Positions 29,913-57,059 of a stretch of DNA of 64,000 nucleotides are shown here, piece by piece. Under the pieces are notes generated by a model. That model ran no database searches, was not told the origin of the DNA, and was given only the letters and a program-made list of their open reading frames with translations. The stretch is from contig NC_092706.1 of NCBI RefSeq assembly GCF_964275005.1, forward strand, positions 6,610,064 to 6,674,063, read 5' to 3'. Position numbers and translations under genes: made by a program. The first letter of the stretch is position 1. Every line of letters begins with the position of its first letter. The stretch is from Diadema setosum. Its lineage: Eukaryota; Echinodermata; Echinoidea; Diadematoida; Diadematidae.

Positions 29913-29988
29913 TTCAGATTTTTGATTCGTGGCAAGTTAACTTATGAATCATTGAAGTCTGCTATCACTCTTCCCTTCACTGCTGTAG
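29913..29988 (-). other. TLR A 5' leader with predicted splice acceptor
   Basis: The 76 nt before the TLR A start. Immediately upstream the minus strand reads CGTATATTTCAG|CTACAGCAG, a plausible acceptor (AG at 29,990-29,989). The leader is homologous to that of TLR B (CAGTGAAGRGAAGAGTGA shared). It contains the end of a conserved upstream ORF, whose stop lies 37 nt before the TLR ATG. Confidence 0.5.
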
Positions 29989-31164
29989 CTGAAATATACG
30001 AGAAATTGTTGCAGAGAAACAGAAGGATCTCATTAATGTTGGCCACTATAGTCGTCCTTATACAATATACAAAAAGTGCACATGGAATTCTGCTACTTCC
30101 CAAACAGGCTTGCAAGTGCCGACCCGAAATCATTGGATTTCAGCCCCCCCCCCCAAAAAAAAAAAAATCTCTTCAAATTGTTTATAATTTTGATACCATA
30201 GTCAGGAATGACCAGAACGTCTAGAGCAAAAAATAGAGAGCGAGAGATCGAGGTATGATAAATTGATGACACCTTTCTTTCTTCGTGGTAAAGCGAGGTG
30301 ATTAACTCGTATACACCTTAATACGGGTATATCTGGTACTAAGATTCAAGAGTCATGTTCGTCCATTTTCAACGGTGTCGTGTTGACGCAAAACATACTT
30401 TTATGTTAACAAAAACAAATGTGACCCTGCATCACAAAACGCACAGAAGGTCGCCAGACATGAAATTTTAGTTAAGAGCATAATCTAAAAAAGCAGACAT
30501 TAAGCTTTAAAATGATGTATAACTCCAATCCAATGGACTCTCCTAACCTACCTAAATATTGGAAAGAAAACACACACTCAGGAAAAGTGAGAACTGAGAA
30601 AAGAGACTCTGAAGTGCAGTGTCTATTCAAGCGCTAAATCTTTACCAAGCCGCGCTGGCTGTGCAACGAATGGGACAAAAAACAGGATGTAAACCACCAG
30701 AGTAACAACAATGAAGGGATTATCAAATTAAACCGAAATTGAGCGTGCCTTATTAACACATTCTGTTCATAATTGATGCTAACTTTCAAAGCAGTAGCAT
30801 TATCCTTTCAAAAGTTATTAGAGTTGAAAGTGAGGAGTGTGTACAAGGTTTTTAAGAAATGAAAAAGGGACTCTAAAAACACACCTAATCACACCATTCT
30901 ACCAAAAAATGTTCAAGATAAACTGCTGAAAAACACACTTTCCTTCCCGTTTAATGATCCCAAATTTTAGCATAATGTAGAAGAAGACTTGCTCTTCAAG
31001 AAAATATGAAAAAGTCAAGATCGCTTAGGTTGACCCATTTCACCTATTTTCAGTCCTCACACAAAATCATTGTGTGCGACTTTTTGTTCGTTTTGTGGTG
31101 CACGGTCACAAATATTCATAATACGTTCTTACCAGATATATCATTACATTCCATTCAACATATG

Positions 31165-31165
<1 letters not shown>
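29989..31165. other. Predicted 5' UTR intron of TLR A, proximal part
   Basis: No independent gene. The 100 or so bases next to the acceptor resemble the matching segment upstream of TLR B (for example CATTAATGTTGGCCACTATA against CATTAGCATTGCCAACTAGA). The rest is AT-rich and unassigned. Confidence 0.4.
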
Positions 31166-31203
<38 letters not shown>

Positions 31204-31435
31204 GAGTTTGTTTGCAAAAACCGATAAGTCCATTTTTGAAGATTTTGAAGTACGGTCTCTGTCATAAAGTACAAAATAATCCCTTTTAAATGATATTTCG
31301 GTCACTACATATAAAGGTACATTTTTGAATTTATGGTCAAGAGAAGCAAAAAATTTCTTATTATTCTCTTTATTTTTCTTGACCTTTAATCGCAAATATC
31401 TCCATTTGGCAAATATGGACTTATCGGTTTTTGCA

Positions 31436-31470
<35 letters not shown>
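31166..31470. mobile_element. MITE family 1, copy 2, embedded in (TA)n
   Basis: The element proper is 31,200-31,440 and matches the 1,004-1,252 element in opposite orientation. Its left TIR starts TGAAGAGTTTGTTTGC and its right TIR ends TCGGTTTTTGCAAACAA, with the last bases replaced by TA repeats. TA arrays flank both sides (31,166-31,199 and 31,441-31,470). A T-run and G-run follow at 31,471-31,492. TA microsatellite growth from the TA target duplication is a likely origin. Confidence 0.85.
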
Positions 31471-31477
<7 letters not shown>

Positions 31478-31492
31478 TTTGGGGGGGGGGGG

Positions 31493-32390
31493 CGGGCGGA
31501 AACAAACAAACCAGACCATCCAATTTTGGATGAAAAAAATTGTAGATCTGAACATTCTTATATTCAGGTCCTTCTCAGATGAAACCGATCGTTTCTATAT
31601 TTATGTTTTCTTGATGAAACCAATCCTCATATCGTGCAGAAATGTACGCTAAAATGGGGATTTTCATAAAAGTGAATATTATGTAAATTGACATTAGGGT
31701 GTGTATTAAATAGACTTATAGTATTACAAATACATTTTTTTTTTTTTTTGTCGATCACTTTCAGCATTTAACCACTCATGTACGTTACCAACGTTATCAC
31801 ATTTTACCGAACTGGTATTAATCATGTTTCGGCTCTTATAGGTTTTATTAGTGTTGAAATGAGCGGCATTGACCCGAGTGACACAGATATGCCAAATGAA
31901 ACATCAGTGCTGTTTGTTGCTGCAAACTCTTTCTTGGACTGATTTTTCTTTATTTTTTTTTCTAGGTCATAGAAGTTCTAGTCAAATTCCGGAAAATGAA
32001 ATGAATTATCGAAAAAAATAAAAACGTCTTGAAAATAACCTATTACACTTAAGTAAGAACAATATGAAAAGTCAACAAGATCCAAAAAGAAAATCCATCC
32101 TCATTCTTTATTGCTCAGTATGAAAACAGAAAATCGGGAGAACTAGAACAATAACTTTTTTTTTTTTGAAAAATCGGACACTTAAAAAAAAAGAGTTATG
32201 AAATGTTCAAAGAGTAAGACAATTTGGCAAGTCTGTGAAGTTCTCGATTCGGCTTGCACAACACTTAACAACAACTTTCGATTTTCTTCAGACGTATATT
32301 CTATTCAGAGTTTTTTTTTTCTGGGTATGTTAAGTAATTGCAATAATATTTTTTTTTTCCCATCGCCCTATAAAAAGCCGAAAAGATCTG
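31493..32390. other. Gene-free stretch, predicted intronic
   Basis: AT-rich, with several T- and A-runs. No coding signature or recognisable element. It would lie within the predicted 5' UTR intron of TLR A. Weak similarity to 56.22-56.39 kb starts near 32,200. Confidence 0.4.
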
Positions 32391-32496
32391 TCTGTGCCGA
32401 AATATTTGAGAAATATGAAAATCAGTAATGATTTTGTGTACAAAGTAAATGGAGAGCTACTCACAAAAATTCTTGCAAACTACAAGATATTCCTAC

Positions 32497-32860
32497 CTTC
32501 TGGTGTCTCACGGTATGTAGAATATGGAAGGAGCAATTCATTTTGCTGTTGGATTCTACAACACATGTGCTGTAACTAGTGGACTCCGATGACGGTGTTT
32601 TCACTTATATCAATCGCCCTTGTAAACCTAGGGCTAATTAATGTCTAGTCCATTGTTAACTCTCTCAAGTCCAACTCTTTCGCCCCGTCTCTGTCATGGT
32701 TTACAATCACAATAACCATGTATGTAATGGTATCATAAGGGTTAACTTGCATGAGCTTCACTCCATCTTTGGTCGCGGTTTTTGTCAAGCGGATCTCGCA
32801 ATGGCGACCGTATCGAGAGTAATAACACTTTCCATTTTGGATTGTTGTAGAGTGTCATAA
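32497..32860 (-). other. Predicted 5' non-coding exon of TLR A with uORF
   Basis: Homologous in the same order to 56,650-57,059 upstream of TLR B. The minus strand ends in ACACCAGAAG|GTAGGA, a good donor (exon end 32,497). A short ORF starts at ATG 32,566-32,564, preceded in frame by a TAG, and runs 23 codons plus one base to the donor. Joined to the acceptor at 29,988 it continues to a 38-residue peptide. Its first codons read MCCRIQQQ and those at the junction RETPEATAVKGRV, closely like copy B. The intron would be about 2.5 kb. The 5' limit near 32,860 is estimated from the TATA-like motif. Confidence 0.5.
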
Positions 32861-32886
32861 AAAGCCAAAAAATGTAAACTTGCAAG

Positions 32887-32894
32887 TTTTTATA
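32887..32894 (-). promoter_or_regulatory. TATA-like motif upstream of TLR A exon
   Basis: Minus strand CACTATAAAAACTTGCAAG. It lies about 30 nt upstream of where similarity to the TLR B leader suggests transcription starts. The matching site by copy B is altered (GACTTTTAATTCA) and separated from the exon by a LINE. Confidence 0.3.
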
Positions 32895-33074
32895 GTGCGC
32901 ACAGTATTGCTTGGAACTCTACAGTGAATACATGCCTTTGTTCAGTGTCTGCTTTTTGTATCGGCGAATATCATTACAAAGTTGAATTTTAAATTTCACG
33001 TCAATTACTTCCTTCTCGATGTTAAACTCTACTACTCTCTCCATGTATATATGTATGTTTGTCCGGGTACGTAT

Positions 33075-33290
33075 ATTTACCTCCGCCAAGGAAGGATGTT
33101 ATGTTTTCATCGACGTTTGATTGTTTGTTTGTTTGTCTTTGTGCAAAATAACTAAAACAAATTTGTTGACGGATTTGGATGAAACTTGCAGGAAAAGTTC
33201 ATTAGGACACAAGAAACAGATGATTAAAATTTGGTATTGATCCGAGATCTTTTAATGGAGTTTCAATCTTTTTGCAGATAGGGTCAGTAA
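33075..33290 (+). repeat. Dispersed repeat fragment (CTCCGCCAAGG type)
   Basis: ACCTCCGCCAAGGAAGG, then GTTTTCATCGACGTTTG, a GTTT run and GACGGATTTGGATGAAACTT, resembles a repeat module common in marine invertebrates. No termini identified. Confidence 0.45.
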
Positions 33291-33316
33291 ACTTATAGGA
33301 GTTCAAGCAGTGCGTA

Positions 33317-34439
33317 TTCAGTCAGTCCGCAGCACGTATGCTAATGAGCCGATCCGGCAAGATTTATTCAGCACTCTCGTTGACGATCTTTGCGTTCGAA
33401 AGGTGTCTCGTCGTGCGAGATTTTGCGAGACTTTGATAGGGCTATGGTTTTCACAGTGTAGCGACTTGTACATACATTCGTCATGGCTACAAGTGACGGT
33501 AAATTGTTTTCCAGACTTTGATCTTTATTTTGATACTAAATTTGCCTATAACATCGGATCTTATCATGACTATAAAATCAGTTGAATTTGCGTAAATTTT
33601 ACCTGCTTTTCACGGAAGATTTTGTCATCTAAAGTTCTTTTTTGGTTCCTGACCGGATTAAGAAATTGTTGTTTCTGATTTTGGTTTTTTCGTAGAGAGG
33701 AAACTTAGATACTCATCATATATTGGAGTCAAGGAGACGCAAGCATGATTTATACTAGTTTTTCCGTTTTGAAATGTCTGTAAAATTCACTCCTAAGCCA
33801 GAAGTATGCTCCGCACAAAGTGTACAGTGGTGCGAAAGAGCTCTCTCATTGGACAGTGCGTGCGTTCAGCGCTTGAACTACACGCGTGCCAAGAAACCGC
33901 AAGTGGCATGAAACCGTTATGAGCAGCGTAATGACGTAATGCAAGCGCTGAGTGCAGGCGCTGTCCAATGAGAGAGCTTACTCTTGAGATTGCACGGTTT
34001 CAAGCTGATCAGCACTGACATCGATGTATACTTTACTGGTTCCTGACCGGATTAAGCAACAAATTGTCAAGATATTTACATGGATACAAAGATTAGGAGA
34101 TGGACTACCAAATAAAGCATTTTCATTGAGACGCAAGGTGAATTTGGTATATTTTTGACGTCTTGAAAGTGTACTGCACGAATTACTTTTTTCATCATTT
34201 TTCAAGTTCAGATTACGCTATGATATTTTTCATTTACAATAATTTGAGTAACATGTGACGATAGTTTACATATTTTCCTTGAATTTGGTACCAAATTTGT
34301 GAACATAAGGTGTATTTCTGTAGCCGAAAGCCCAAGGACAAAATCCCCTTACGCAGCTCATTACGTATGCAAGCCTAAAGCGGGCTTGCATACGAGTTGA
34401 ATAAATACGAGCAAATTATCGGGTGCTGCGGACTGACTG
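33317..34439. mobile_element. 1.1-kb element with inverted ends
   Basis: CAGTCAGTCCGCAGCAC at 33,319-33,335 is inverted at about 34,421-34,437. GGTTCCTGACCGGATTAAG occurs twice in direct orientation (about 33,645 and 34,039). A perfect 12-bp hairpin (CGTATGCAAGCC) lies near 34,365-34,395. No transposase frame is seen. It lies upstream of TLR A and has no counterpart near TLR B. Confidence 0.6.
33836..33982. repeat. Inner palindrome
   Basis: AGAGCTCTCTCATTGGACAG and GCGTTCAGCGCTTG are inverted as CAAGCGCTGAGTGCAGGCG and CTGTCCAATGAGAGAGCTT. About 147 bp. It is nested within the 33,317-34,439 element and may be a separate MITE. Confidence 0.75.
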
Positions 34440-35100
34440 TATTATTATATTTTAGGCTTGCATACGCGCGTCAAACTGCTCGGGCGATGCGCCGCTCAGC
34501 TGGAAGCTGATGACGTAAGCAAAGGGCTTCTATTTTGGGAAATTGGACGATTTTTCTGCATGAGTGCATGGATGGAAAATTGCTGCTTGGCGAAGGTTTG
34601 CGCTCTAAGAGTGTTTTTCCACTTATATAATTATGAATGTAGGTTCACTTTCACACACACGCATGCAGACTCACACACATTATATGTGCGTAATATTTGT
34701 AACGGCATTTCATATTATCTATACAGATTACGCGTGAACAGCTGGTGAATTTGACCGCAAAGTCTTTTATCCTACTCGACTTCACTTCATATCTTATTAA
34801 ACTTTTCATGTAAAATGACGCTTACTTGTTCGGAAACTATTAGAGGTTATGTGATGCACCCATTCAGAAAAGTGATTCCAAGAAATACAAGCTTATTTCA
34901 GAAAAAAAAACAACAACAAGAATACATGTCCTATACTGTAGACTATTTCATGTATAATTATGTAATGTAACTGGTCAAAAACAAAATAGAAATAAATGAT
35001 TACACTTTCACACAATAGAGACTCATAAGGACTGATACAATGAATAGAAACCGAAGTGGTTATAGTGAAAAAAATTATATTAATCTGTACATGTTCTTTT

Positions 35101-35135
35101 TGACAACAATGCTACACATTCCATACAATGACAAA
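35101..35135 (-). other. Upstream anchor of the TLR duplication, copy A
   Basis: GACAACAATGCTACACATTC and the following bases match 62,102-62,135 at about 29 of 34 positions by eye. Order and orientation relative to the TLRs are the same. Supports a duplicated unit reaching at least this far. Confidence 0.45.
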
Positions 35136-35214
35136 GCATGACCGCACAGAGGCTTAGCTTTTAATACATACGAGGAAAGATGTGCACCACAAACGAGACA
35201 TATCTGGTCAGTTT

Positions 35215-35321
35215 GGCGTTATGGTGACATGACATTTGCTCCGGTGACAACTGCGCCGGTGTGATTTCCTCCAAGAACTTGGTTAGGGTGTGATAGGTTT
35301 TAGATTTAGTTTGTTGTGAGT
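35215..35321. mobile_element. MITE family G, copy 2, left half
   Basis: Begins ATGACATTTGCTCCGGTGAC and runs through TAGATTTAGTTTGTTGTGAG, matching the left half of the intact 14,375-14,620 copy. It then stops where the retroelement begins. The right half resumes near 39,909. Confidence 0.7.
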
Positions 35322-35727
35322 TTTAATAAATTTTATCGTACTTTAGTGCGATATAAATGGTTTACGTTGTCGGTGACAGCGGTTGTGCGCGGCGACCTCC
35401 TTTGATTTAACCGCTGAGCGGCAGCTAGTTATATCAAGGGCTTGCCGGCATTTTTCTTAGAGGTTGCCGCGCGTTCCTCATGTGTTAATAGCGCGGTGTG
35501 AAAGAGCGCGCATATTTACTTGTAGCCTATACTTAGCAATGCAGATTAGCGAAGAATAGGCAAATTCCCACGGTTGACGTTCACATGCACATTTTGCCTG
35601 CCGATTTGATGGTGGATGGTTGTGTTCGCTGTTAGCTCTCGCAATTTTATTAAATCGTTAGGCATTAACACTTTAATTACGTTGAATTTCCGACTATACG
35701 TGTTTACTGTGATACTGAGCGTCGACT

Positions 35728-39908: not shown

Positions 39909-40015
39909 ATTAAAGTTATTTTTGTAGGTACAATTTATGTTTGGCTTAGCGTGCAGATATTTTATGAGGGCAATCGTGACTATTGTAGCAGGAGCAGATG
40001 TCATGGAACCTGATG
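39909..40015. mobile_element. MITE family G, copy 2, right half
   Basis: Starts TTAAAGTTATTTTTGTAGGT and ends GCAGGAGCAGATGTCATGGA, matching the right half of the 14,375-14,620 copy. Together with 35,215-35,321 it shows the 4.6 kb between is an insertion. Confidence 0.7.
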
Positions 40016-42451: not shown

Positions 42452-45289
42452 TCAGAGAGGCAAAAGACCATTTATTTTCTTGTTTCCCCTCAACGTTTTT
42501 GTGAGTTCTTCCCAAAAAAGCATTTGCTGGTATCTTTCTTCCGTCCATTGGAAGTAGGGTTTATTCTTACTGAGGAACAGTCGAACCAAATAGGGTAGCT
42601 GGTTGTCTGGAATGTCCTCTCGAAAAACCATGGCGACGTTTTCTAGTTGGACGTCGTTCATGTGCGCCAGAGCGAACTGGAGCGTCATCAAGTAGTTGGC
42701 ATCGTTGACGGACTCCTTGCTGATGATCACCAGGTTCTTAAAGCTGTTCTCAATGACCCGATCGATGGCGTCATAGCGCGTCCCTCCCAGAGGCAAATCG
42801 TCGTCGCCGCACACGATCCTGTTGCGAAGGAAGTGTGGAAGATGCTCCTGGACAGCCACCAGAAACTCTCCAAATACCCAAGCTTCGTCTTCATCGGGGA
42901 AGATGATATTAAGGTCGTAACGGTAATCCTGATGTTCGCGCGCGTCCTCTAGCTCATAGTTTCCAACGACAAGAAGCCTTAAATGAAAGCACTTGTAAAT
43001 CAGCCACGATCGCTTTCTCCAAGCCACAACTGATCCAGTCATGAACAATAAGATCAACCCGCTTGCAGAAATGTAAAGAGTCACGTTTGGCCCACAGACC
43101 TTGTCAGGGTTAAATTCTAAAATTGATTGCCCTACAAATTGTGAGATAGACTGCCGTGAACAAACAGTTTTATGGGGGTTTCCCAATGTCACATTTCCTT
43201 CACTCAGGAAACTTCTAAACCAGGAAAGGTTGCAAGTGCACAAAAGGTGATTCTGAGATATATCTAAATATTTCATTGGAAGAAAAGTGTTTTCTTCTAT
43301 GCCAGTAAAATCATTTTTACTTAATGACACCATGTACAATTCTTTGTTTTGGCTAAATAAGTTTTTGTTAATGTTTCCACTTAACTTATTTGTACTCAAA
43401 CGCAAGATATGTAGAGAAGTCAAATACTGAAGGTGGTCAAAAGTAACAGAAAGAATATTGTTCTTATCAAGGAATAACCTCTCTAGAGACGATAAATTAG
43501 CGAATATCTGCTCTGGAATACTAGAAATTTCACATTTTGTGAGATGTAATTCTCTCAACTGGTAGAGGCCATCAAATGTATTGGGAAACAGATCGCCTAT
43601 CGGGTTTTTTTCTAAGAGAAGTACTTGAAGTTGAGACAATGTAGCAAGTACTGGAACACTATTTACTACCAGCTTTTCTCCGACGATGTTGGCAGAGCGC
43701 AACTCTAGTTTGCGTAGAGACGTCAGCCCGTCAAATGCTCTGCTTCCAATCCCAAAGCTGCTATGGGATAACTCAAGGAATGACAACCGGTGAAGATATT
43801 TAAAGGGGTTTGTTAATTCTACTAGGAATTCTAGATATTTTAAGTCCAAGCTCTCTAGATTGTTCAAGCCGATAAAACCACCGGAGGACATCATGCGCAT
43901 CGGGTTTGATTTGAGTATGAGATATGTCAAGTTGGATAGAAAGGAAAATGGACCGGATGCGAGAGAAAATATACGATTGTTTGACAAGTCTAACGTTTCC
44001 AGAGACTTAATCCGAAAAAACGTCGTGGGAACCTCTGTAATTTGATTTGCTGATAGATTCAACAAGGTCAGATGATGGAGCTTCGCTGAAAGCTGAAAGT
44101 CCAAGCGAGATATCTTATTTTTAGACAATATCAGCTTCCGCAGATTTGGAACATGTTGCAGCACCGGTTCCGCGATAGTAGACAGAATATTTCCAGCGAG
44201 GTCCAATATTTCCAGGGACAATAGACCTTCAAACGTGCGATTTCGAAAATTTCTTATCTTACATTCTGAAAGGCTTAATATCCTTAACAGATTTAAACCT
44301 TGAAACACCCCTTCTGGTAAAGACGACAATTTGGGCGATGAAATATTTAAACTAATTAGGGGAGGAACTTGTAAAGTGGAATTTGTCATGTTAAATTGGA
44401 AGCCCTGGATTTGGGCAACCTTACTAGGTCCTAGCTTTAGATCTTCCAGAGAATCCATACCGAGAAATGAATTGAGTTTCAAGTGTATGATCTTATTTCC
44501 CTCAAGGTCCAGCCCTCTGACATGCTTCAAACGCTGAAATGCGCCACACGGAATATATTTGATGTTGTTTTTAGATAGTCTTATTAGGGTGATATTTGCC
44601 ATTGCTAACGGTGTAAAATCATTTGCTTGGATTCTTGTGATGTTATTTCTTGTGAGGTATAATATGTTTATGCTTGTAAGAAGATCTCCAGTGAAGCGAA
44701 ATTGGCGTCTACAATTCCCATCAAAGTTCACGTTCGTTGCCGAGGGGAGTTTATTAAGTGCTGTAAGGGGAATCGCCGGGAAATCATTCTGCGCAAGATT
44801 AAGAAAACGAAGATTGGGATTCTTTGAAAACGTGTCTGCATCCAGGTTGATGAGATGATTGTAACCAAGGAATAGTTCTTCCAGGCGCCGAAGTGGATAA
44901 AAAGCTTCCTTCATGATATGCTTTAGCTGGTTTCTCCATAGTTTTAATATTGTTACTGCAGGCACATCAACGAATGACTTATTAGAGAGGATTTCGAATT
45001 TATTCGAAGTCAGGTCGAGAGTCGTTATCTCTGGCGGTATATCAGACGGAACTTCTCGAAGGCCGCGGTTGCTACACCTGGCCTCAAACCCTTTGCCTTC
45101 GTGCCAGAACGTGCAGGGATAATTCGATGAATGACTTGCAGACTCTCCGGTCAATTTGCGAGATTCTTCTTGACGCGAAATCACGGCGCTAAAGGGGCAG
45201 AAGAGAAGACTGACCAGGACTCCCAATAAACTTAAGGAAATCATGACGAAGGTTAGTCGAAAGAGTCTTTTGCAGCTTTGTGAGTTCAT
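42452..45289 (-). CDS. Toll-like receptor B (single-exon, 945 aa)
   Basis: Paralogue of the receptor at 27,075-29,912, with identical length and domain order. It has a signal peptide (about 1-36), an N-terminal cap (YPCTFWHEG then ARCSNRGL), about two dozen leucine-rich repeats, one C-terminal cap (LCTCNLSW, then two further Cys), a membrane helix (about 736-757) and a TIR domain (789-935). By my count 128 of the last 157 residues equal copy A; the ectodomain varies more, as expected if it binds ligand. TIR box 1 is YDLNIIFP, box 2 VCGDDDLPLGG, box 3 FW. No stops or frameshifts. The start is supported by the signal peptide and a leader homologous to copy A. It is likely a functional immune receptor; ligand unknown. 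Confidence 0.95.
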   Translation of the reverse strand: MNSQSCKRLFRLTFVMISLSLLGVLVSLLFCPFSAVISRQEESRKLTGESASHSSNYPCTFWHEGKGFEARCSNRGLREVPSDIPPEITTLDLTSNKFEILSNKSFVDVPAVTILKLWRNQLKHIMKEAFYPLRRLEELFLGYNHLINLDADTFSKNPNLRFLNLAQNDFPAIPLTALNKLPSATNVNFDGNCRRQFRFTGDLLTSINILYLTRNNITRIQANDFTPLAMANITLIRLSKNNIKYIPCGAFQRLKHVRGLDLEGNKIIHLKLNSFLGMDSLEDLKLGPSKVAQIQGFQFNMTNSTLQVPPLISLNISSPKLSSLPEGVFQGLNLLRILSLSECKIRNFRNRTFEGLLSLEILDLAGNILSTIAEPVLQHVPNLRKLILSKNKISRLDFQLSAKLHHLTLLNLSANQITEVPTTFFRIKSLETLDLSNNRIFSLASGPFSFLSNLTYLILKSNPMRMMSSGGFIGLNNLESLDLKYLEFLVELTNPFKYLHRLSFLELSHSSFGIGSRAFDGLTSLRKLELRSANIVGEKLVVNSVPVLATLSQLQVLLLEKNPIGDLFPNTFDGLYQLRELHLTKCEISSIPEQIFANLSSLERLFLDKNNILSVTFDHLQYLTSLHILRLSTNKLSGNINKNLFSQNKELYMVSLSKNDFTGIEENTFLPMKYLDISQNHLLCTCNLSWFRSFLSEGNVTLGNPHKTVCSRQSISQFVGQSILEFNPDKVCGPNVTLYISASGLILLFMTGSVVAWRKRSWLIYKCFHLRLLVVGNYELEDAREHQDYRYDLNIIFPDEDEAWVFGEFLVAVQEHLPHFLRNRIVCGDDDLPLGGTRYDAIDRVIENSFKNLVIISKESVNDANYLMTLQFALAHMNDVQLENVAMVFREDIPDNQLPYLVRLFLSKNKPYFQWTEERYQQMLFWEELTKTLRGNKKINGLLPL

Positions 45290-45368
45290 TTCAAATTCTT
45301 TGATACGCTATAACAAGATTGCACCGGACTATTGAAGAGTTCTCTCACTCTTCTCTTCACTGGTGTAC
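45290..45368 (-). other. TLR B 5' leader with predicted splice acceptor
   Basis: The 79 nt before the TLR B start, homologous to the copy A leader. Directly upstream is a long pyrimidine tract ending GTTTTGTTTTAG|GTACACC (AG at 45,370-45,369). Joined to the donor at 56,650 it extends an upstream ORF whose TGA overlaps the TLR ATG as ATGA. Confidence 0.5.
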
Positions 45369-45689
45369 CTAAAACAAAACGCAAAAAAAAAATAAAAATA
45401 TATGCAGAGAGTCAGAAAACTGCATTAGCATTGCCAACTAGATGTCCTTTCACATCAATTAAAAAGATATATGCTCTGAAAATGTTGTTATTGCCCTAAG
45501 AGGTGTGCACTGTGCCATCTTGAGATCCACAGCTGATGTCAAAGAACAATATTTTCTTCTTACTCATTATTAAGGGAAATGAAATGGAAGTCAAAGGAAG
45601 TATCATTTTGATGATATTTTCTGTCTTATAGACATGTACGCGATTACAAATTGTTTTATAAATTTTATTTTCAAGTTTGTTGTTTTTGG
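45369..45689. other. Predicted 5' UTR intron of TLR B, proximal part
   Basis: AT-rich, non-coding. The first hundred bases are similar to the matching stretch upstream of TLR A. A LINE fragment follows. Confidence 0.4.
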
Positions 45690-46400
45690 GGAAAATTCTA
45701 TAAATAAGGATTTAGATCTTGTCAACAACTGGGTACAAGAAAATGGCCTCACACTTAACCCTAGTAAGACACACTTCATTATTTTTGAAACGCCTCAAAA
45801 ACTAGCTGCTATCCCAAATCTCGTCAACATAAAGCTGGAGAGCCACACACTCTCCCAAGTAAAGTCTTACAAATATCTTGGGGTACACTTAGACCCAGTT
45901 CTTAACTGGAAGGAACATGTATATCATACAAGTAAGAAAATAAGTTCCAGATTAAGTTTGATGAGTCGTCTGAAAAAATCCCTACCTCTGAATTCACTAA
46001 AACTCCTTGCAAACTTTTTAGTTCTCCCATTGTTTGACTACTGCAGCATCGCCTGGTCAAAATGTCCCTCTACTAAGAAATATATTATTGTGAGACAACA
46101 CAAACGAATGGCCAGAATAGTCTTAGGGGTAGACACACGTACATCTACTGACTACGTACTAAGTCAACTAAACTGGACCACGATTGAGGATAGGTGGAAG
46201 CTTCAAAGGTGCAAACTGGTTTATAGGGCACTAAAAGGGGATGCTCCAGAGTACCTGTCACTCTTGTTTCAAAAAGCTTGTAATACGCACAACTATCCGA
46301 CTAGATCAGCAGTCTCTGACGGGCTAATAGTAACTAGAGCTCAAACTAATGCTGGGAAACAGTCTTTTTCATACACCGGAGCACTCGAATGGAACATTTA
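45690..46400 (+). mobile_element. 5'-truncated LINE fragment (RT thumb and C-terminal region)
   Basis: An open frame carries LVNNWVQENGLTLNPSKTHF, then YKYLGVHLDPVLNWKEHV, then FDYCSIAWSKCP and NYPTRSA. These are typical of the end of RT and the region after it in CR1/Jockey-group LINEs. The catalytic YADD region is absent (5' truncation). The frame breaks off at ALEWN, just short of the expected WNSLP-type end, where the minisatellite at 46,404 begins. The ORF's apparent first 20 residues are flanking sequence. Confidence 0.8.
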
Positions 46401-46403
46401 AGG

Positions 46404-47010
46404 CTACTTTTACAAAGTCGCCAAGGCGCCTTACTTAAGGCAAGGCGCTATGTTTAAGACGTCAAGGGGTGAAGGCGCCTTAATTGTTTCGGCCAAAAAG
46501 GCAAAAGGCGACTTTTACAAATCGCCAAGGCGCCTTGCTTAAGACGACAAGGCGAGAAGGCTACTTTTACAAAGTCGCCAAGGCGCCTTACTTATTAAAG
46601 GCAAGAAGGCGAGAAGGCGACTTGTACAAATTCGCCAAGGCGCCTTGTTTCAGATAAGAAGGCGAAAATGCGACTTGTACAAACTCGCCAAGGCGCCGTG
46701 TTTAAGACAAGTCGTGAAAGCGACTTGTACAAAGTCGCCAAGGCGCTTTGTTTATGACTACACGACGAGAAGGCGATTTGTACAAAAGTCGCCATAGCGC
46801 CTTGTTTAAGACGAGGAGGCAAGAAGGCGACTTGTATAAAGTTGACAATGTGCCTTATTAAAGACGAGAAGATGACTTGTACAAACACGTCAAGGCGCCT
46901 TATTTAAGACGAGGAGGCGAGAAGACGACTTGCGCAGACTCGGCAAGGCGTCTTGTTACGACCAAGAAGGCGAGAAAGCTACCTGTAAACTCACAAAGGC
47001 ACCCTTTTAG
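46404..47010. repeat. ~52-bp minisatellite (GCCAAGGCGCCTT type)
   Basis: About 11 diverged tandem units carry GTCGCCAAGGCGCCTTGTTT and GACGAGAAGGCGACTTGTAC. Core positions are near 46,421, 46,524, 46,576, 46,635, 46,688, 46,738, 46,792, 46,845, 46,890 and 46,942. Predicted frames across it are artefacts. A single related copy lies in reverse at about 54,716-54,757. Confidence 0.88.
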
Positions 47011-47387
47011 ATATGTCTATAAAATTGATGGCTTGGTATACTCTCGAAAACAAATGAAGTAAAATCATTATTTACAAATAAAGCTTACGATTATTGGGAG
47101 GGGTCTAGAGTTATTTTATGTCATTGATAAATCACGTAATTCTTCCGCAAGCGTTCTAAATATTTCAGCTGTCCTCAAATATAATGATACCAAAATTATA
47201 TGAAAATCTATAGAAATCAGTGCAAGCGATCCCCAAATGTTTGTAATTTACAACGCCTAACAATATTCTTACACATAATTTATTGGAAATATCACCATGT
47301 CATCTATCACATCATGTTTGTGGGACTATTATGGCTTAGGTTTTGTAAGTGACAATCTATATCAATGGCGTAAATCCGTACTGAGGA

Positions 47388-47495
47388 GTGGGGGGGGGGG
47401 GGATGATCGGCGATAGTCACCATCATCACGTTTACAAGCCCATAACCTGTCCGGCGCAGCCTTGGGGGGGGGGGGGAGGGGGGGGGGGGGGGGGA
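47388..47495. repeat. Poly-G tracts
   Basis: G-runs at about 47,390-47,402 and 47,465-47,494. Potential quadruplex-forming and difficult to sequence, so lengths are uncertain. Confidence 0.85.
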
Positions 47496-47925
47496 AGAGA
47501 GAGAGAAAGAAGCTTGGTCCCCCTCCCTACACAAACACACTTTACAGGGATCGAATGTCCCACTCTTTTGCATGCAAATTTTTGCATGCGGAATATCAGA
47601 CCTTAAAAGTATGTAGACTTTTATGTTGATGCTTCGCTTGTCTTTTGATGTTCTTTCTTCTTGACTGACACCCCCCCTTTCAAAATCATAGCGCAGCACT
47701 GAATAATGCCCAAATAAATTCAATTAAATGGTAATATGGATATTCTTTGTATGCAATAACGTAGTAGATATTTTCCTGTGGCTATTAATTGCATTCTTCA
47801 ATTTTCTTGATTTACGTGAATAAAGCAATCACCCCAGGTGCATCGTTCCGTTTTGATGATGGTGGGTGGGGGAGGGACTTGGAGTTGGAATATCTGTGCG
47901 AAGGAGCGGAGCTACCTGGTTTCGG

Positions 47926-48436
47926 TGTAAAAATGGCAGAGGTAAAAATGGCAGGAGTAAAAATGGCAGGGGTAAAAATGGCAGAGGTAAAAATGGCAGA
48001 GGTAAAAATGGCAGGGGTAAAAAATGGCAGGGGTAAAAATGACAGGGGTAGAAATGGCAGAGGTCAAAATGGCGGAGGTCAAAATGGCAGCGGTAAAAAT
48101 GGCAGAGGTAAATAACTATGTGGTAAAACGTCAGAGGTAAAAATTTTTACCCCTGCCATTTTTACCCCTGCCATTTTTACCCCTGCCATTTTTACCTCTG
48201 CCATTCTTACCCCTGCCATTTTTACCCCTGCCATTTTTAACTCTGCCATTTTTACCCCTGCCATTTTTACCCCTGCTATTTTTACCTCTGCCATTTTTAC
48301 CTCTGCCATTTTTACCCCTGCCGTTTTTACCTGCGCCATTCTTACCTGTGCCATTCTTATCATGGCCATTTTTACCTGTGCCATTTTTACCTCTGCCATT
48401 TTTACCCCTGCCATTTTTACCTCTGCCATTTTTACC
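47926..48436. repeat. Inverted 15-bp satellite array (giant hairpin)
   Basis: Fifteen-bp units GTAAAAATGGCAGAG (variants AGG, GGG, GGA) run rightward from 47,926 to about 48,142. The same unit runs in the opposite orientation from 48,143 to 48,436 (about 20 units). They meet at the perfect palindrome GTAAAAATTTTTAC. Both strands give Val-Lys-Met-Ala repeats, artefacts of the 15-bp unit. AGCTACCT lies on both sides (47,910-47,917 and 48,444-48,451) and could be an 8-bp target duplication. Long inverted repeats built of 15-bp units are described for sea urchin TU foldback elements; whether this is one is unproven. Confidence 0.88.
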
Positions 48437-48453
48437 TGGCAATAGCTACCTAG

Positions 48454-49200
48454 CGGGGGGGGGGGGGGGGGGGGGGGAGGATGTGGGAGGGCGGTATCCC
48501 CCCTCCCACACGAGAAAGAGTTTGTATTTTCAGGCCTGAAATTCAGCGGTCTGGTGCACACTTTAGGTGAAATTTGGGATTTTTTTCCTATAAAAAACAA
48601 TTAAGAAAAAGAAATATTCATAGATAATTGAATGACTACATCGTGGTATTTCAAGCTCTTGCTCCGCCTGTGTGACATCACTCTGAAGGCCTACTAAATA
48701 GTGGGGCCTATCACCGGCGTAGCCAGGATTTGATCTTAGGGGGGAGCGGTTAGATGCGAGGGAGCAAAGCGAGAGAGGGTGTTTCTTCCTCCCTCTCCCG
48801 CAGTAAGAACTTTTTGCATACTGATATTGTAAAATGTGCAATTTGATGCATTTTTTGCGTGTTTTATCGACTTGAAACAGTCCCACATGTTTAAAGTAGC
48901 AGTAAATTTAATGTAGATTATTATTGAATAATTTTGCCTATAAAATGGTATCATTTAAATAAACTTCTTGTATTAATTATAACACTGAATATCATTTACG
49001 CGAATGAGCCCGAGCGAGCGGAGCGAGTGAGGGAGGGGGGGGGGGGGGGTGGGGGGGGGGGGTGGGGGGTTGGAGGGGGAGGGTGTGGGAGGTGGTGTTC
49101 CCCCTCCCACGGTGAGATTTTTTTTTTTTTTTGCATTTTGATGTTATATATGGTGCAATTTGATGCATGTTTTTGCGCGTTTTGTCGACTTGAATACATT
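48454..49200. repeat. Three partial copies of a G-rich dispersed repeat
   Basis: Three segments (about 48,454-48,530, 48,727-48,880, 49,005-49,200) share a GAGCGAGCGGAGCGAG/GGGGG start. Then come a CCCTCCCAC block and, in the last two, GTGCAATTTGATGCATKTTT with GACTTGAA. All are in the same orientation. Long G-runs lie at 48,455-48,477 and 49,027-49,062. Confidence 0.7.
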
Positions 49201-49773
49201 GTGCACATACAGAAGAGAGTAGGGAAAGAGAGGGCGGGAGGGGGAGAGGGGGAGTAGAGAGAGCGAAGGGCAGGTCAACATTCTCGATACAGGGTGAAGA
49301 AAAAAGAACAACAATTCCAAACAGTCAAACTAATCATGGGGTACATATGAGCTAATCAAATATTTCTTTAAATTATTAGAAAATGATTTCAAACTAATGG
49401 AATCTTTTATATTTTTCTCAAGGGAATTCCAAAATTTTGGGCCACTGTAGATAAACGTGGATTTTGTAAATAGAGTTCGGGTAAGGGGCAAACGATATTC
49501 ATCTTATTAAACATATTTTCAAAAACTGAAGGAAGTGACTTATTATACAAACTGTACATAAATTGACCAAGGTAATAATAATACAAATCCCTTACTTTTA
49601 AAACCTTATTCTCCACAAATAATCCGTCAGTATGGGAATATTTGGAGGTATTACATATTACTCGAAGTGCTTTTTTTGTAACAAAAATAATCTATCCAAA
49701 TAAGTTTAATGTGTATTTCCCCATACTATAATTCCATACGTTAAATAAGGTAAAATTAACGTTGAATATAACA

Positions 49774-51162
49774 TTAGCAACTTTTTAACAGAAAACAAAA
49801 CTTTACTTTATTAATTACACCTATGTTACTGGAAATAGTGCGGCATATACAATCTATATGCTGTTTCCAAGAAAGCTTACTGTCTACAGTTACACCAAGA
49901 AATCTAACAGAATAAACCTGTTTTATCACTTCATTTTCAAAAATTATATCATGTGGCAATTTATCAAGGGTATTACTAAACAACATCACATTTGTTTTCT
50001 GCAAATGAAGCGATAATCTATTTGCTCTTAGCCATTGCATTATCTTGTTCAATTCTATATTCATGACATCAACTAATGTATGAGGATTTGAATGAGAAAA
50101 GAAAAGATTAGAATGATCTGCAAATAATATAAAAGAAAGAACATTTGAAGATTTTCGAAAATCATTGATGTAGATAATAAAAAGTAACGGCCCTAGTATA
50201 CTTCCTTGTGGAACTCCACAATCAACTGAGCGCAAAGAAGATTTTTCATTGTTTATACAAACAAATTGTTTTCTGTCTTTCAAATAGCTTCTGAACCACT
50301 CCAAGGCCTTCCCACGTATACCATAATGATTAAGTTTATAAAGAAGAATGTCGTGGTTAATCGTGTCGAAGGTCTTGGAGAGGTCCAGGAAGATTCCTGC
50401 AGTATGTTGAAACTTATCAATTGCTCGAGATACTTTTTCAGTGAAAGATAATATTGCATGTGCTGTGCTATGTTTCTTGCGAAATCCAAATTGATATTTT
50501 GAAAAAATGTCATTTCTATTTAAAAAATATATAACTCGAGAATATATTATCTTTTCTAATATTTTAGATATATTAGGCAAAAGAGAAATAGGTCTGTAAT
50601 TATTCAATTCTTCCCTATTACCCTTTTTAAAAATTGGAACTATTTTTGATATTTTCATAACATCTGGTACCTGCCCTTGTGATATTGATAGATTAAAAAT
50701 GTGAAACAAAGGATCAACAATATAAGGTATTATATTTTTTAACAGTATATTATCAATATCATCACAACCAGAACTTCTTTTAGAAGGTAAATTATGAACA
50801 ATATCTAAAATCTCATATACTGTTACTGGGGAAAAAAAGATTGAATTTTGATTACCTACGTCCAGATAATCATAAAATTCTTTAGTAGACAACGGAATAT
50901 TTGCACAAAGATTCCGGCCAACAGTTGAAAAATGTGAATTAAATATTTCTGCCATCATACGTAAATCTTTTATTTCAAATCCATCATTCTTAATTTTAGA
51001 AATAACATTTCTTTCCTTATGCTTATTCAATGTTTCATTTATCAATTTCCAAGTATTGCGCATATCATTTTTAAACAAATCTAATTTTCTCATATAATAA
51101 TTCCTTTTTTTCTTTACGCAATACCATAGTGAGAGTATTTTTATATGCAGTATACTTATCAC
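49774..51162 (-). pseudogene. LINE reverse transcriptase segment
   Basis: An open 462-codon frame inside the LINE covers the linker and RT. The apparent start is internal; the true frame continues from the previous segment. FADH in place of FADD (Asp lost) and a frameshift at the end (LLKSC, then the thumb region in another frame) mark it as dead. Confidence 0.85.
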
Positions 51163-51556
51163 GGGATTGCAGTGTTTTTTTTAGCCTTACTTACATAATA
51201 CAAATTATTTTTACGATTAATTGAACGTAATAATGACTTTGACACCCATGGCAATCTTGGATCACGTTTATAACTACCCAACTTCTTTTTAAGTAATGGA
51301 ATATGTGTATCTAACAAAATAACAATCTTATTTATAAAAATTTCATAAGCTACATTCGTATCTTGCACCACATAAAAGTCAGACCAGTCAATTTCCATCA
51401 AAGATTCCTGAAACTGGGCTATATTCTGAGGTGTAAACTTACGCCTTCTTTCATAATTCTGAGGTATTTTCGTCTTTAACTGTAAAGATGAACACATATA
51501 AATAGCATAATGATCAGATATATCCGTAAGTATAATAGCAGAATCAGGAAAAGGGT

Positions 51557-52381
51557 TTACATTACAAAAAAAATATTATCTATTACAGTGGCAGATTGTT
51601 CTGTTACACGGGTTGGTTTTGAAATCAAGGGTGAGAAATATGCAGAGAGCATAATATTGAGAAATTCCTCGGGATAATAAGAATCATTACATTTACTTAA
51701 ATCAATATTAAAGTCACCCATTAAATAACATTCCTTATTCAAAACTGAAGATTCTTGTAATAATTCATTAAAATAATCAAAAAATAATTTTATGTTAGCA
51801 TCAGGGGGCCTGTATATTACGCCTAATAAAATATCTTTCCGATTAGGCACTTTGATTTCTATGAATAAGGATTCAACAAAACTTTCCATTCGACAGATAT
51901 CTTTTCGAATGAAAAAATCAAAATTGGATTTAACATAGAAGGCAACACCCCCACCACTTCTATTATATCTGTCGTTATTTATCAAATGATATCCTGGGAG
52001 ATTAAATAAAGAGGCAGTATTATCAGTGAGCCATGTTTCTGTAAGCCCAATTACAGAAAAAAATGAGTCTGTAAAATTATCTAAAAAAATACGCAAATTT
52101 TCAAAGTTTTTATTTAAACTTCTTATATTCATATGCATCAGGGAGAACTTTTCGCTAACATCTTTGGACTTTAATTGATTAACAGTGACATATGGCGAAG
52201 AAATATCTTGAAATTTATCATTAAAAATATCATTTGTATGAAAATTAATATCTTTGGATATTAGGTTGTCAAATGACAGTGAAGCAGTTACATTCTGATT
52301 ATTTGAATCAAATACGAATAAATCATGAAAATCCTGTTCATTCAAACGACTGAAGTCAAAATCAAATATCGAATCAGCCAT
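51557..52381 (-). pseudogene. LINE endonuclease segment
   Basis: A 274-codon frame holds an acidic, Asn-rich leader and most of an apurinic-type endonuclease domain (Asn, Glu, Asp and Asn catalytic motifs listed with the LINE). The final SDH motif lies just beyond a frameshift. Confidence 0.85.
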
Positions 52382-52400
52382 TAAATCGATTCAATGCTGG

Positions 52401-52914
52401 AAGACCCTGACGGTCGTAACAAAACCACCGCACGTCCTGTATTGAGGAATCTACTGACCTGTTGAAAGAAGAAGAGGGAATGAAAAGAAAGAGTGTACAT
52501 ACATTCACACACATGGTACATACAAACACATGCATACAAATACACAAACATACACGCAAACACGCACACACGTTCATATACAGACGCACACACATACAAT
52601 GTACTCATACACATCAACGTCATAAGGGGACTTACACATCTATCAGTTTAAGGAGTCACATCGGTCTCTCCAAAGGAGCACAGGAGTAAAATAACCATAT
52701 GTTCAAACTGCAATCTTAGAATTTGTACCGTTCACTAATTTCATTGGTACTTTCATTACCTATCAATAACTATCACACACAGAAAAAGTTAATGTACCAT
52801 TATTACGTACAATTATTAATAACAGATCTTTCCTGGAAGCAACGAAAAGAAAAAAAAAATGTTGAAAAAAAGTTTGTAATTAAATTTTCGACGTATCTAA
52901 AACCTTTCAAATGG
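52401..52914. other. Gene-free stretch with CA-rich sequence
   Basis: Degenerate ACACA/ACATA repeats at about 52,495-52,615, which could be the start of the LINE's 5' UTR or flanking sequence. No coding signature. Confidence 0.4.
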
Positions 52915-53235
52915 ACGTTTTAAAAAGTTTTTAAAACGTTTAAAAAACCAAAAAGAAACTTTTCGGAATTTTTAAGGACGTGCAGAAAACCTTTTGCACG
53001 TGATAGACGTCAGTAAAACCTTTAAAGAATATTCAAGACGTTCTGTGGACGTTCTGCGGACGTCCAAAAAACCTTTGAAAACCGTCTAGCACGTTCAAAA
53101 AATGTTCAAAAACAAAAAATGTAAGAACGTCTAAAAAAGTCTTATGACCCGTTCCAGAACGTTTAGAGAACTTTTCATATCCGTCTAGAACGTCCAGAAA
53201 ACCTTTTAAGAACGTCTAATGTTTATTTTTATTGG
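52915..53235. repeat. AACGTTTT/ACGTC-rich degenerate repeat
   Basis: About ten scattered variants of AGAACGTCTAGAAAACCTTT. A similar AACGTT-rich block lies at 54,380-54,710 and ends AACGTTGTGTGTTTGCTGGG. It looks like a decayed tandem repeat family. Confidence 0.55.
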
Positions 53236-53355
53236 GCATTTAAAAAAAAAAGTATAGTTATGAGACTACACAGGCACAATCTGGGATTAATGTGCCCTAA
53301 TCCTAATCCCATATAATCCTATCCTAACCTATTACTAATGTCCTATTACCTATAC

Positions 53356-54001
53356 CAAGGAGGTTCGAGAAATGGAGTCACAACAGTCTTATTCGGCTTG
53401 ATCCCATGCTCGAAGCCGCCACTCAAAAATATTTCAAGTATGTGTCAAACTGGATCTGCGGCTCAGATGCGAAGACAATTGACTCGTGTCTCATTGCACG
53501 ATCACCTGCCACTTTCCAAGGAAGATATGTCTTTGTGATGGTAATTACTTTTCGCTATCCCTACTTACAAACAATGGGCGGTAGACAATGGTAAAGGCAC
53601 GGGGGTGCGCGAAATAGAAATTGCTCAAATATTGCTGAAATAGATATCAAAATTACTCGACTGTACGTGTCTGTACGCTAATCTGACATATTAATTTACA
53701 AAGAACTAAACTTGAAGATGATGCCATATTAGTTTCATTTGGCGGAAATAAGGAGAAAAGTAATAAAACCGGCTTTCCATGAAATTTCATTGCATTTGAT
53801 ATGTAAACGAGCAGCATATTATACCCAATATTATGATAGCGCTAAAAAGGAATCTTCAGATTGCTCAGAAAGATGGCGGCTTCAAGCATCGAACATCAAA
53901 GGCACTAATGCACCTGTGGAATTCTTTTGTCCATCCATAGAAAACTGACAGCTGATTGAATAATTATAATCAGTTGTAACTCCATCTCTCGAACCTCCTT
54001 G
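53356..54001. mobile_element. TIR element with 7-bp target duplication (hAT-like)
   Basis: The 29-bp inverted ends start CAAGGAGGTTCGAGA and differ at two positions. Inner pairs (GCTCGAAGCCGCCA and TGGCGGCTTCAAGC) extend the symmetry. CCTATAC lies directly outside both ends (53,349-53,355 and 54,002-54,008), a 7-bp direct repeat. End sequence and duplication size are near those of hAT elements, which usually give 8 bp. About 646 bp, no transposase. Confidence 0.8.
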
Positions 54002-54379
54002 CCTATACTGTACCTATACTACATCCTATTCCTAATTGATGAATCTGTATCACATTATTTATATACCATCAAAATGTTGTTATGCATGAAGACATGGTTA
54101 CTAAAATTGAATCACACATACCTTAATTAGGCCTATCAACATATGAAAATACCTCTTCATAACACAATTTGAAATGGTGAATAACTGAACAATAACGTAG
54201 GTACAATTTTTAACACAGAAAGTTTGAAACCTGCATATATCTTTAGATGTCAATGTCTTGTATCTAAAACTATTATCTCTAGATTTCAAATCTTATATTC
54301 TCTTATTTGAATATTCATGAATATGCATGAATATTCATGATATAGAAACCAATGACGAACACGTAGAGGACCAAATAAA

Positions 54380-54757
54380 AACATTTTTTTAATGTTCATT
54401 AAGGATGAAGTTGACGTAGCAGAGCTAATAAAAACGTTTTGTGGACGTTTATAAAGGACGAAGACGTAGCATACATAATAAAAACGTTTTGTAACGTCAA
54501 TTGACGTTTTTAAAACATTTCCAAAATACCCCTGTGCTTTGCGGTAAATGCTAAGTCCCAACTCTGACGTTGTAAATATGCTGTATGTACATTTTAAAAA
54601 CATTCATTTCATACGAAGACGTACGGAACCTAAAAAAAAAAAAAAACAACAACAACAACAAAAAAAAAAAACGTTTAGTAACGTTCTGAAAACGTTGTGT
54701 GTTTGCTGGGTAGTGAGTTTGTAAAAGTCGCCTTGTTGCCTTTGTGGCCGAAACAAG
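54380..54757. repeat. AACGTT-rich repeat with adjacent minisatellite-like unit
   Basis: Several AAAACGTTTTGTGGACGTTT-type units, an A/CAA-rich run at about 54,632-54,671, then GTAACGTTCTGAAAACGTTG. Directly after it 54,716-54,757 is the reverse complement of one unit of the 46.4-kb minisatellite (TTTGTAAAAGTCGCCTTG and GGCCGAAACAA). Confidence 0.6.
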
Positions 54758-54799
54758 TGTGCTATGGGGGATAATGATGCTTCCCTAAATTTGTTTAGA

Positions 54800-56030
54800 T
54801 ATCTGCAGTTCCTCATTTTTTACAACATAAAAATCTTTCTCCTCCGAAGGATGTGTTTTTCTGTCACTGAGGGGCGAGAATTCACTTATTTTTTTTTTTT
54901 TTTAATGTGACGGTCCTCCCGTCCTTAAAGCATATGATTCTGTGCATTTTGCTTTCTCTTTGATGTGCATCTCACCTTTTCACCTGAAACAAAACATTTG
55001 AATAGTAAATTTGGGGAGACTTAGCAAAGTAGTTCGAATTTGTTTCGCCTTTGTGTCTATAACAAGTGGTCAAACAAACCAAATTGCCTGCATCTTTGAG
55101 AACCAAGCCACTTATTGGACCACACCTGCCTATTTTGTTGCTTGCGTTGCCTCCTCCAGGCAGCAGTATACTTATTTAGGTGCATGTTGACATTCTGCAG
55201 ATTTAGACATGCCTGCATTGATGCTGCCTGTATCGATAGCTTAGAGCCGGTGTCTCTTGATAACGACAGAGAGGCATTGTTTGAGAAGGGCGAGGCCCTA
55301 CGACATTTTTATATACATGTCATGGTTTGCAGAAGCCAGTTGTAGCAAGGCTGGTTTATATTCGTTAAACGTCAGCTTCATTTCGTGCTCATATACTGTG
55401 GATTTGCTGTAGATATCCTGTACATATGCTGTAATTATCGCATATAGCCTCCTGTCCGTTTGTCATCCGTAATTACACGCGTTTTGCCTGGTAGTTATCA
55501 TGTGGCTATGCCGTGGATATGCGTTTGATGTGCCGTACATAGCCGTTCAATCCGTTCCATCTCTTGCAGCAACGGACTAATTACAGGAAGCCTAGCGGAT
55601 GGAAACGCGTGGTAAACGACAAAGTATAATACAAATACAGGAGAAAACGTGCAACTATAAGACAAAGGTCGGATCACGCTATTCGTTTTTGGCGAGGAAA
55701 AACTTTGGGCATGCTCAAATTTTTCTGGCCGCTCTGACGAACATCACCGGAAGATAAACGTCCGTCCAAAGGATAAGAAGGACACGAAACGCATTTTAAC
55801 GGATATCAACGGACGCCAAAAATCGACATTATAGTTTCTAATGCGTTTGCCTTATCCGGCAAAGTGTGACAGGGGCATTAGTCTAACTGCGACCAGCCCG
55901 AGCGCGAAGCGTTCAAGTTCAAGTTTGGCCACCATGTGGCCAAACTTGATCATGAATTATTCATGAGCAGTTAAAATCGATTTAGACTGCAGTCTATTTC
56001 GGGTTTAATTCAAACCCGAAATACACTTTG

Positions 56031-56034
<4 letters not shown>
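54800..56034. other. Gene-free stretch with hairpins
   Basis: No gene recognised. The segment at about 55,850-55,880 ends TGTGACAGGGGCATTA, resembling inverted ends of the GC-rich foldback family at 25.5 kb, but no matching left end is seen. CAAGTTTGGCCAC with a 3-nt loop forms a perfect hairpin at 55,920-55,948, and TTTCGGGTTT one at 55,998-56,022. Confidence 0.45.

Positions 56035-56081
<47 letters not shown>
56035..56081. repeat. Poly-A tract of about 47 bases
   Basis: An uninterrupted A-run. It may be a retroposon tail, but no retroposon body is recognised to its left. Confidence 0.9.
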
Positions 56082-56084
<3 letters not shown>

Positions 56085-56649
56085 CGCCAGCAGAATACAA
56101 AATTAAACTTTGCGTTCCGCTAAATCATGAATGAGTCAAAATTGTGTTCAAACCTTGGTCTACTGTAGAATACAGGCCAGAAAAGTAGAACAGTAAAAAC
56201 AGAAGCACATAACAAGTTGTGAAAGTTTACGGAGTTTGGAAAACAAGGCAACTCTGTGTGATCTAGGGGTTGAGCAGTTCTGCATAGGTTTGTACAAAAA
56301 TCTACACCATATTTCTGCAGAAATATTATCTTCAGAACTGTTTTTGATATATTTTCAAGTGATATGTTTTTTTGAGTGTCTTTCTCAGCGGAAATCTTCT
56401 GTCATGCCCAAATATGTGAGAAATATGAAAATCAGTGCTAAGTATGCGCATTAGTGGTAACTTTGAGTTAACTTGGAGGGCGGCTCAAGAACCCGCAAGG
56501 CATTCTGTGCCGTTCGTCCAGGTATCCTGTACACCATTTCATCCCAGCATGGACCTGTGTCTAAAGAAACGTTAGGGGTAAGGCATTTTGTCTCAGGATA
56601 TACGGTAAGTTAATTTACTACACCTTTATAAACCATATGAAATTCTTAC

Positions 56650-57059
56650 CTTCTGGTGTCTCCCTAAATGCAGAATATGAAGAGGCTTCTGAAAGTTGCT
56701 GCTGGATTCTACGGCACATGTGCTGTAATTATTGGACTCCGGTGACAGTGTATCCAATATTATATCATTCATCTCTGTATATGATCTTTATTGGACGGAT
56801 TAAACGCCAGCCCACTGATACTCTCAAGACGAACTCCTTTCTTTGTTTCCTTGTTTTACTATCACAATGACACTGGTATCGTAACCGTGAAACCAGCACC
56901 GACTTGGGGAAATCGACACCTTTGTCATTATTCGTGGGACTGGGCGTCACTTGCATTTAACTAGTTGCGGTTAATCCCAACCGGTTCTAATAGTCGCAAT
57001 GGTATACATATCGAAAGTCGTAATCTATGCCATTTGGGGTTGCTGTAGTGTCATGAAGT
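56650..57059 (-). other. Predicted 5' non-coding exon of TLR B with uORF
   Basis: Homologous to 32,497-32,860. The minus strand ends ACACCAGAAG|GTAAGA, a consensus donor. A uORF starts at ATG 56,719-56,717, is preceded in frame by TAA, and runs 23 codons plus one base, exactly as in copy A. Across the junction to 45,368 it reads on to 50 residues, starting MCRRIQQQ and reading RETPEGTPVKRRV at the junction. Its stop overlaps the TLR B ATG. The intron would be about 11.3 kb, inflated by transposons. The 5' limit is set by the LINE at 57,075. Confidence 0.5.

Follow-up and report, generated by a model that had tools for sequence, protein, structure and literature searches.

Human TLR2, a Toll-like receptor (TLR) gene, has been described as having a single coding exon besides two that are non-coding (PMC3095423). 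A comparable layout is proposed here for two TLR genes (gene 1 and gene 2) on the minus strand of a 64 kb window (the whole stretch of DNA analysed, C24:6610064-6674063, contig NC_092706.1) of the sea urchin Diadema setosum, whose genome of 912.7-Mb is distributed over 102 contigs. As in human TLR2, the receptor is wholly encoded in one coding exon, a non-coding exon would be located upstream and the promoter would be distant from the open reading frame (ORF); the layout of the window genes is therefore of an already known kind. The differences are that one non-coding exon is seen here, that the genes form part of a tandem array, and that a relationship by descent between the leader exons is not evidenced.

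The sea urchin Sp185/333 (SpTransformer) genes are described as clustered immune genes with two exons (PMC3091723, PMC5491942). Clustering of immune genes and the number of exons are shared with the locus analysed here. On the other hand the proteins are unrelated, and whereas the first exon of Sp185/333 genes codes for a leader peptide, exon 1 of the TLR window genes is predicted to be non-coding. As for the receptors, at least 222 TLR genes have been reported from the sea urchin genome (PMC10855541). In the literature searched by title and abstract opening, no report was found of an exon in the 5' untranslated region (5'UTR) of echinoderm TLRs. Echinoderm TLR families were reportedly the subject of a study by Buckley and Rast in 2012.

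Each TLR gene of the subfamily that includes gene 1 and gene 2 very probably consists of two exons, with a distal promoter, a non-coding first exon and a spliced 5'UTR intron. In the mechanism proposed, the promoter and an exon 1 of a few hundred nucleotides (nt) would lie 0.74 to 29 kb upstream of the coding exon. Splicing would use a conserved donor at the end of exon 1 (11/13 genes read AAG|GTA, the bar marking the junction) and a YAG acceptor a short distance 5' of the coding sequence, and exon 2 would carry the rest of the 5'UTR plus the whole receptor. The ancestor of the array would already have had this arrangement, which would have been copied along with the genes at the DNA level, and the growth of the intron would have been unequal among copies, in gene 2 partly via insertion of a long interspersed nuclear element (LINE). 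Transcription, splicing and the position of the promoter are what we infer from sequence in this scheme.

The upstream block and its splice-site letters

A preliminary description of this DNA had claimed that both genes, which would usually be annotated as intronless, have a distant and conserved 5' exon. Both ORFs match Pfam LRR_8 and TIR above the cut-off and each is one uninterrupted coding exon; the two genes are 78% identical at the DNA level (BLAST within the window). The donors are exactly where they had been placed, with last exon bases at 32497 (gene 1) and 56650 (gene 2) and the context AAG|GTARGA; an acceptor-like YAG stands just before the first exon bases 29988 and 45368, leaving the leaders of 76 and 79 nt that had been described, and the introns estimated at about 2.5 and 11.3 kb measure 2,508 and 11,281 nt. 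The upstream blocks are homologous, as had been stated, with 77% identity over 144 columns (E 2e-21 within the window), an alignment that ends 20 nt past the donor, and with 66% identity over the last 330 nt. Regarding their 5' limits, the blocks are present as claimed, but the limit given for gene 2 at about 57.06 kb turned out to be the insertion site of a LINE. On the acceptor side, the two genes become similar by BLAST 6 nt ahead of exon 2, i.e. within the pyrimidine-AG, and a global alignment upstream of exon 2 gave weak patches only.

The reading-frame test covered the two window genes. In-frame stops are found between acceptor and ATG at -27 and -39 in gene 1 and at -21 and -42 in gene 2, all of them within exon 2. 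A coding role of exon 1 was rejected for these genes because these stops follow the acceptor.

When a 501-bp query from gene 1 was searched against the whole genome (912.7 Mb), 26 matches were obtained: the query itself, the gene 2 block and 24 places of a dispersed repeat inside the intron. This repeat of about 63 bp, located at 32400-32463 just within the gene 1 intron, is 80-89% identical to its 24 other matches. A block common to the introns of gene 1 (32376-32426) and gene 2 (56387-56436) was discarded as evidence since it overlaps the dispersed repeat.

An alignment of paralogues for the donor motif had also been suggested. The protein search gave at least 49 matches at E < 1e-20, and 48 of 275 candidates were scored. 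Among the scored candidates, 13 genes form the subfamily (at least 60% identity): 12 on C24, in a head-to-tail array on the same strand at 6.637-6.858 Mb, and one (L017) on C7. Several members are interrupted, with in-frame stops in L017, L018, L020/L021 and L027, and L019 is split. A sequence-only model built from the blocks of gene 1 and gene 2 (R1) detected the block 5' of L020, L017, L018 and L014 (E 4e-22 to 1.6e-8), L016 (8e-14) and L015 (1.7e-12). A second model (R2) was built from nine copies, one of them L012, included manually on account of a weak BLAST match (E 0.005); R2 confirmed the L012 block, which is part of its training set, and found four copies outside its training: L019 (6e-26), L011 (6e-9), L013 (5.6e-31) and L027 (7e-11). 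In gene 1, R2 matches the last 135 nt (to 32631) of the predicted exon 1. The block is thus present in 13/13 subfamily genes, always on the coding strand and always 5' of the ORF. Scanning 16 TLR loci from other clades (L022-L026, L028-L038; 1.5 kb flanks) with R2 gave no match. In a TLR cluster of another clade on C11 (L025, L028, L035, L037, L038) the acceptor-like string TTTTYRCAG|GAAG is likewise seen slightly upstream of the start, and a search of 1.5 kb gave no conserved donor.

The splice-site letters are conserved. Across 11 aligned copies (214 columns) invariance is limited to 17 columns, and the hexamer AAG|GTA takes up six of these; the chance of all six being invariant was calculated as 1e-7, a figure that is optimistic because the copies were excised around an AAGGTA string. 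Across the subfamily the donor GT is kept in 12/13 genes and AAG|GTA in 11: L012 and L015 have small inserts adjoining the hexamer, which is intact, and in L027 a 6-nt insert makes the donor read ATG|GTGAGA. The acceptor AG is found at the homologous place in 12/13 (11/12 aligned, plus L027). A genome scan with the 19-mer ACACCAGAAGGTAGGAATT, which spans the donor, gave 17 places with up to two mismatches and four with the reversed pattern as control; matches with 0-1 mismatch are all in the TLR array on the TLR strand (5/5), and 1/12 of those with two mismatches is likewise. This conservation of block, donor and acceptor throughout the family argues for the distant 5' exon predicted on both window genes.

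The intron lengths in the 12 genes that have both splice sites are 740 nt in L018, 742 in L020, 761 in L017, 1249 in L019, 1534 in L016, 2152 in L012, 2172 in L014, 2508 in gene 1, 4607 in L015, 8510 in L027 (worked out from positions), 11281 in gene 2 and 28868 in L013. An ancestral intron of about 0.75 kb, later enlarged by insertion, is inferred from them. The C7 copy (L017) retains the exon-1 block, the donor, an intron of 761 nt and the acceptor; a truly intronless, retrocopy-like TLR family was therefore ruled out, and this copy moved as DNA.

Weighing the alternatives

Several observations count against the proposal of two exons. With splice-site matrices, the donor score is equalled or exceeded at 23 (gene 1) and 6 (gene 2) positions on the minus strand of the window, the site itself included, and the acceptor score at 125 and 51. 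The single sites being unremarkable in strength, the case rests on conservation in the gene family. In many pairs of copies homology continues upstream of the donor for about 400 to 580 nt (simple repeats unmasked), and it exceeds the likely exon on both sides, so that homology alone marks no exon. Upstream ATGs are barely depleted: summed over 12 copies there are 26 in the final 165 nt of exon 1 (33 in shuffles) and 77 in 330 nt (87 in shuffles), and the assumed leaders of gene 1 and gene 2 contain 11 and 7. Besides, the R1 search of the upstream regions of L011 and L012 missed both, a crude test of other TLR clades gave no conserved donor within 1.5 kb (0/3 groups, 12 loci), and in L011 an A-tract replaces the donor and TTTAA stands at the homologous acceptor, an AG following 4 nt later. 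As regards the upstream ATGs, one of them, inside an ACATGT stretch, opens a short upstream frame that would cross the exon junction (38 codons in gene 1, 50 in gene 2); it was set aside, the stretch of genes 1 and 2 not being shared by 7 other aligned copies.

The likeliest alternative is that of a real exon whose use is optional, where some members, chiefly gene 2 and L011, would now start near the coding exon. It is compatible with the proposal of two exons, the two not being mutually exclusive, and we regard it as rather unlikely. A LINE with its target duplication stands directly 5' of gene 2 exon 1, and L011 is altered at both the donor end and the homologous acceptor, a pattern consistent with joint loss of the two sites or with a move to other ones. 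Against this alternative, the donor of gene 2 shows no decay and has the top score among the 11 donors scored with the matrix. L011 (with L040:2385-2560) has an open frame, and it is possibly a natural case in which the leader intron was lost or shifted.

A reading of the upstream blocks as conserved regulatory DNA (promoter or enhancer) instead of exons, with TLR transcription starting just before the ATG, is very unlikely. Such DNA would account for the homology that passes both the donor and the likely 5' end of the exon, and for the upstream ATGs being hardly depleted; it leaves aside that six of the 17 invariant columns are a splice donor, that the partner acceptor is kept in 12/13 genes though the sequence 5' of it has diverged, and that order and orientation are constant in 13/13, neither of which an enhancer requires.

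Finally, a functionless passive remnant of tandem duplication is extremely improbable: shared flanks are expected among duplicates and several members are interrupted, but identity is as low as 44-67% in 65/66 of the exon-1 pairs compared, and the donor and acceptor letters, which passive flanks would lose, are retained.

The LINE beside gene 2 and the mosaic paralogue L013

In gene 2 mobile elements accompany the two-exon structure proposed for the subfamily. The predicted intron of gene 2 contains LINE ORFs on the same strand (endonuclease, 51557-52381; reverse transcriptase, 49774-51162) and an opposite-strand ORF (45634-46401) with a weak reverse transcriptase match below the Pfam cut-off. 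A further LINE, in opposite orientation, adjoins exon 1 between two copies of a target-site duplication; five other genome copies of this element (96%) start at the same base. Its distance from the donor, on the upstream side, is about 410 to 425 nt, close to where transcription would be expected to start, and the original promoter of gene 2 may have been altered or lost.

The older upstream block of gene 2 may have been displaced beyond this LINE, a claim that has modest support. BLAST for the gene 2 upstream block beyond the element gave weak matches only, and high scores of L013, L014 and L018 were withdrawn since they came from simple GT- or T-rich repeats. With the repeat omitted, L013 alone was raised (its score was reached by 25/500 shuffles) and the other 10/11 paralogues stayed at background; a control query inside the LINE was nearly as good (L012, reached by 38/500). 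When the test was bound to position, the L013 score was reached by 3/2000 shuffles, gene 1 remaining at background. The LINE with its target duplication, like the proposal of two exons, is independent of the displaced block.

L013 (C24:6692777-6698590) is a mosaic: its coding exon is of the L012/L018 type, and its first exon (L049:334-493), 28.9 kb away, is nearer the gene 2/gene 1 type. The coding exons of L012, L013 and L018 are 91-93% identical (L013 to L012/L018, 91-92%). In the exon-1 region L012 and L018 are 85% identical, and L013 shows 55% to L012, 58% to L018, 58% to gene 1 and 62% to gene 2, the nearest. Similarity between L013 and L018 ends about 305 nt upstream of the L018 acceptor, within the intron, and of the introns of gene 1, gene 2, L012, L014 and L018, the five compared, only that of gene 2 matches the donor-side intron of L013. 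In the approximately 27 kb between the L013 exons (C24:6698400-6725800) no other exon-1 block was found, and in the tested part of it (C24:6698400-6724200) no TLR fragment was found. Either the coding exon was placed or converted behind the first exon of another member, or L013 has no first exon and the distant one is an orphan.

Regulatory shuffling by tandem duplication has been shown with RNA-seq in Drosophila yakuba (PMC5460883). As there, tandem duplication can bring a coding part under different regulatory sequence, which is suspected for L013; unlike that case, L013 is known here from sequence discordance alone. We suggest tentatively, as a minority possibility, that the 5'UTR intron lets cassettes of promoter and exon 1 re-pair with coding exons through breakpoints in the intron, putting a receptor that has one set of ligand-binding repeats under the control of another member, L013 being the visible case.

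Layout of the window and implications

The features of the two genes and of the LINE beside gene 2 are collected in Table 1. Strings related to the TATA-like TATAAAAA of gene 1 (picked by eye from the alignment, with no test) occur between -301 and -533 from the donor in 8 of the 11 other copies covered (the subfamily except L027), the three without one being gene 2, L015 and L016. A 247-bp repeat (95% identity) is present in inverted orientation at 31194-31440, inside the predicted intron of gene 1, and at 1012-1258. Related elements of about 570 bp at 12825-13392 and 63013-63594 are 75-79% identical, also match their own reverse complement and look like hairpin-type mobile elements. Positions 10684-11077 are a perfect tandem repeat with two adjoining copies of a 196-bp unit.

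Table 1. Positions in the window of the TLR genes, their predicted leader parts and the LINE adjoining gene 2.
Feature	Position	Strand	Remarks
TLR gene 1, single coding exon	27075..29912	-	ORF 945 aa; leucine-rich repeats + TIR
Gene 1 exon 2, 5'UTR part, 76 nt	29913..29988	-	acceptor ...ATATTTCAG|CTACAGCAG
Gene 1 predicted 5'UTR intron, 2,508 nt	29989..32496	-	
Gene 1 predicted non-coding exon 1	32497..32870	-	donor ACACCAGAAG|GTAGGA; 5' end approximate, assumed from TATA-like string
TATA-like string TATAAAAA	32887..32894	-	about 395 nt upstream of gene 1 donor; putative promoter role
TLR gene 2, single coding exon	42452..45289	-	ORF 945 aa; leucine-rich repeats + TIR
Gene 2 exon 2, 5'UTR part, 79 nt	45290..45368	-	acceptor ...TTTGTTTTAG|GTACACCAG
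Gene 2 predicted 5'UTR intron, 11,281 nt	45369..56649	-	
Gene 2 predicted non-coding exon 1	56650..57059	-	donor ACACCAGAAG|GTAAGA; 5' end not fixed
Target-site duplication copy 1, 15 bp	57060..57074	.	AAAGAAAATGTAAGC
LINE, opposite orientation to gene 2, adjoining its exon 1	57075..61749	+	Pfam Exo_endo_phos + RVT_1
Target-site duplication copy 2	61750..61764	.	AAAGAAAATGTAAGC
Possible displaced piece of gene 2 upstream region	61765..61808	-	CTATGCACATA...GAAATATGCGACTTTT; modest evidence, one paralogue (L013)

If the proposed structure is true, the promoters of 13 receptor genes would be situated 0.7 to 29 kb from the position that ORF-based annotation gives them, and reporters, motif scans and knock-outs directed just upstream of the ATG would therefore test intron sequence. 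Exon 1 would also serve as a diagnostic RNA-seq tag for each gene in a subfamily where some coding exons are more than 90% alike. With unequal intron growth, a LINE beside one first exon and one mosaic member, the divergence of promoters within a TLR array would become directly testable.

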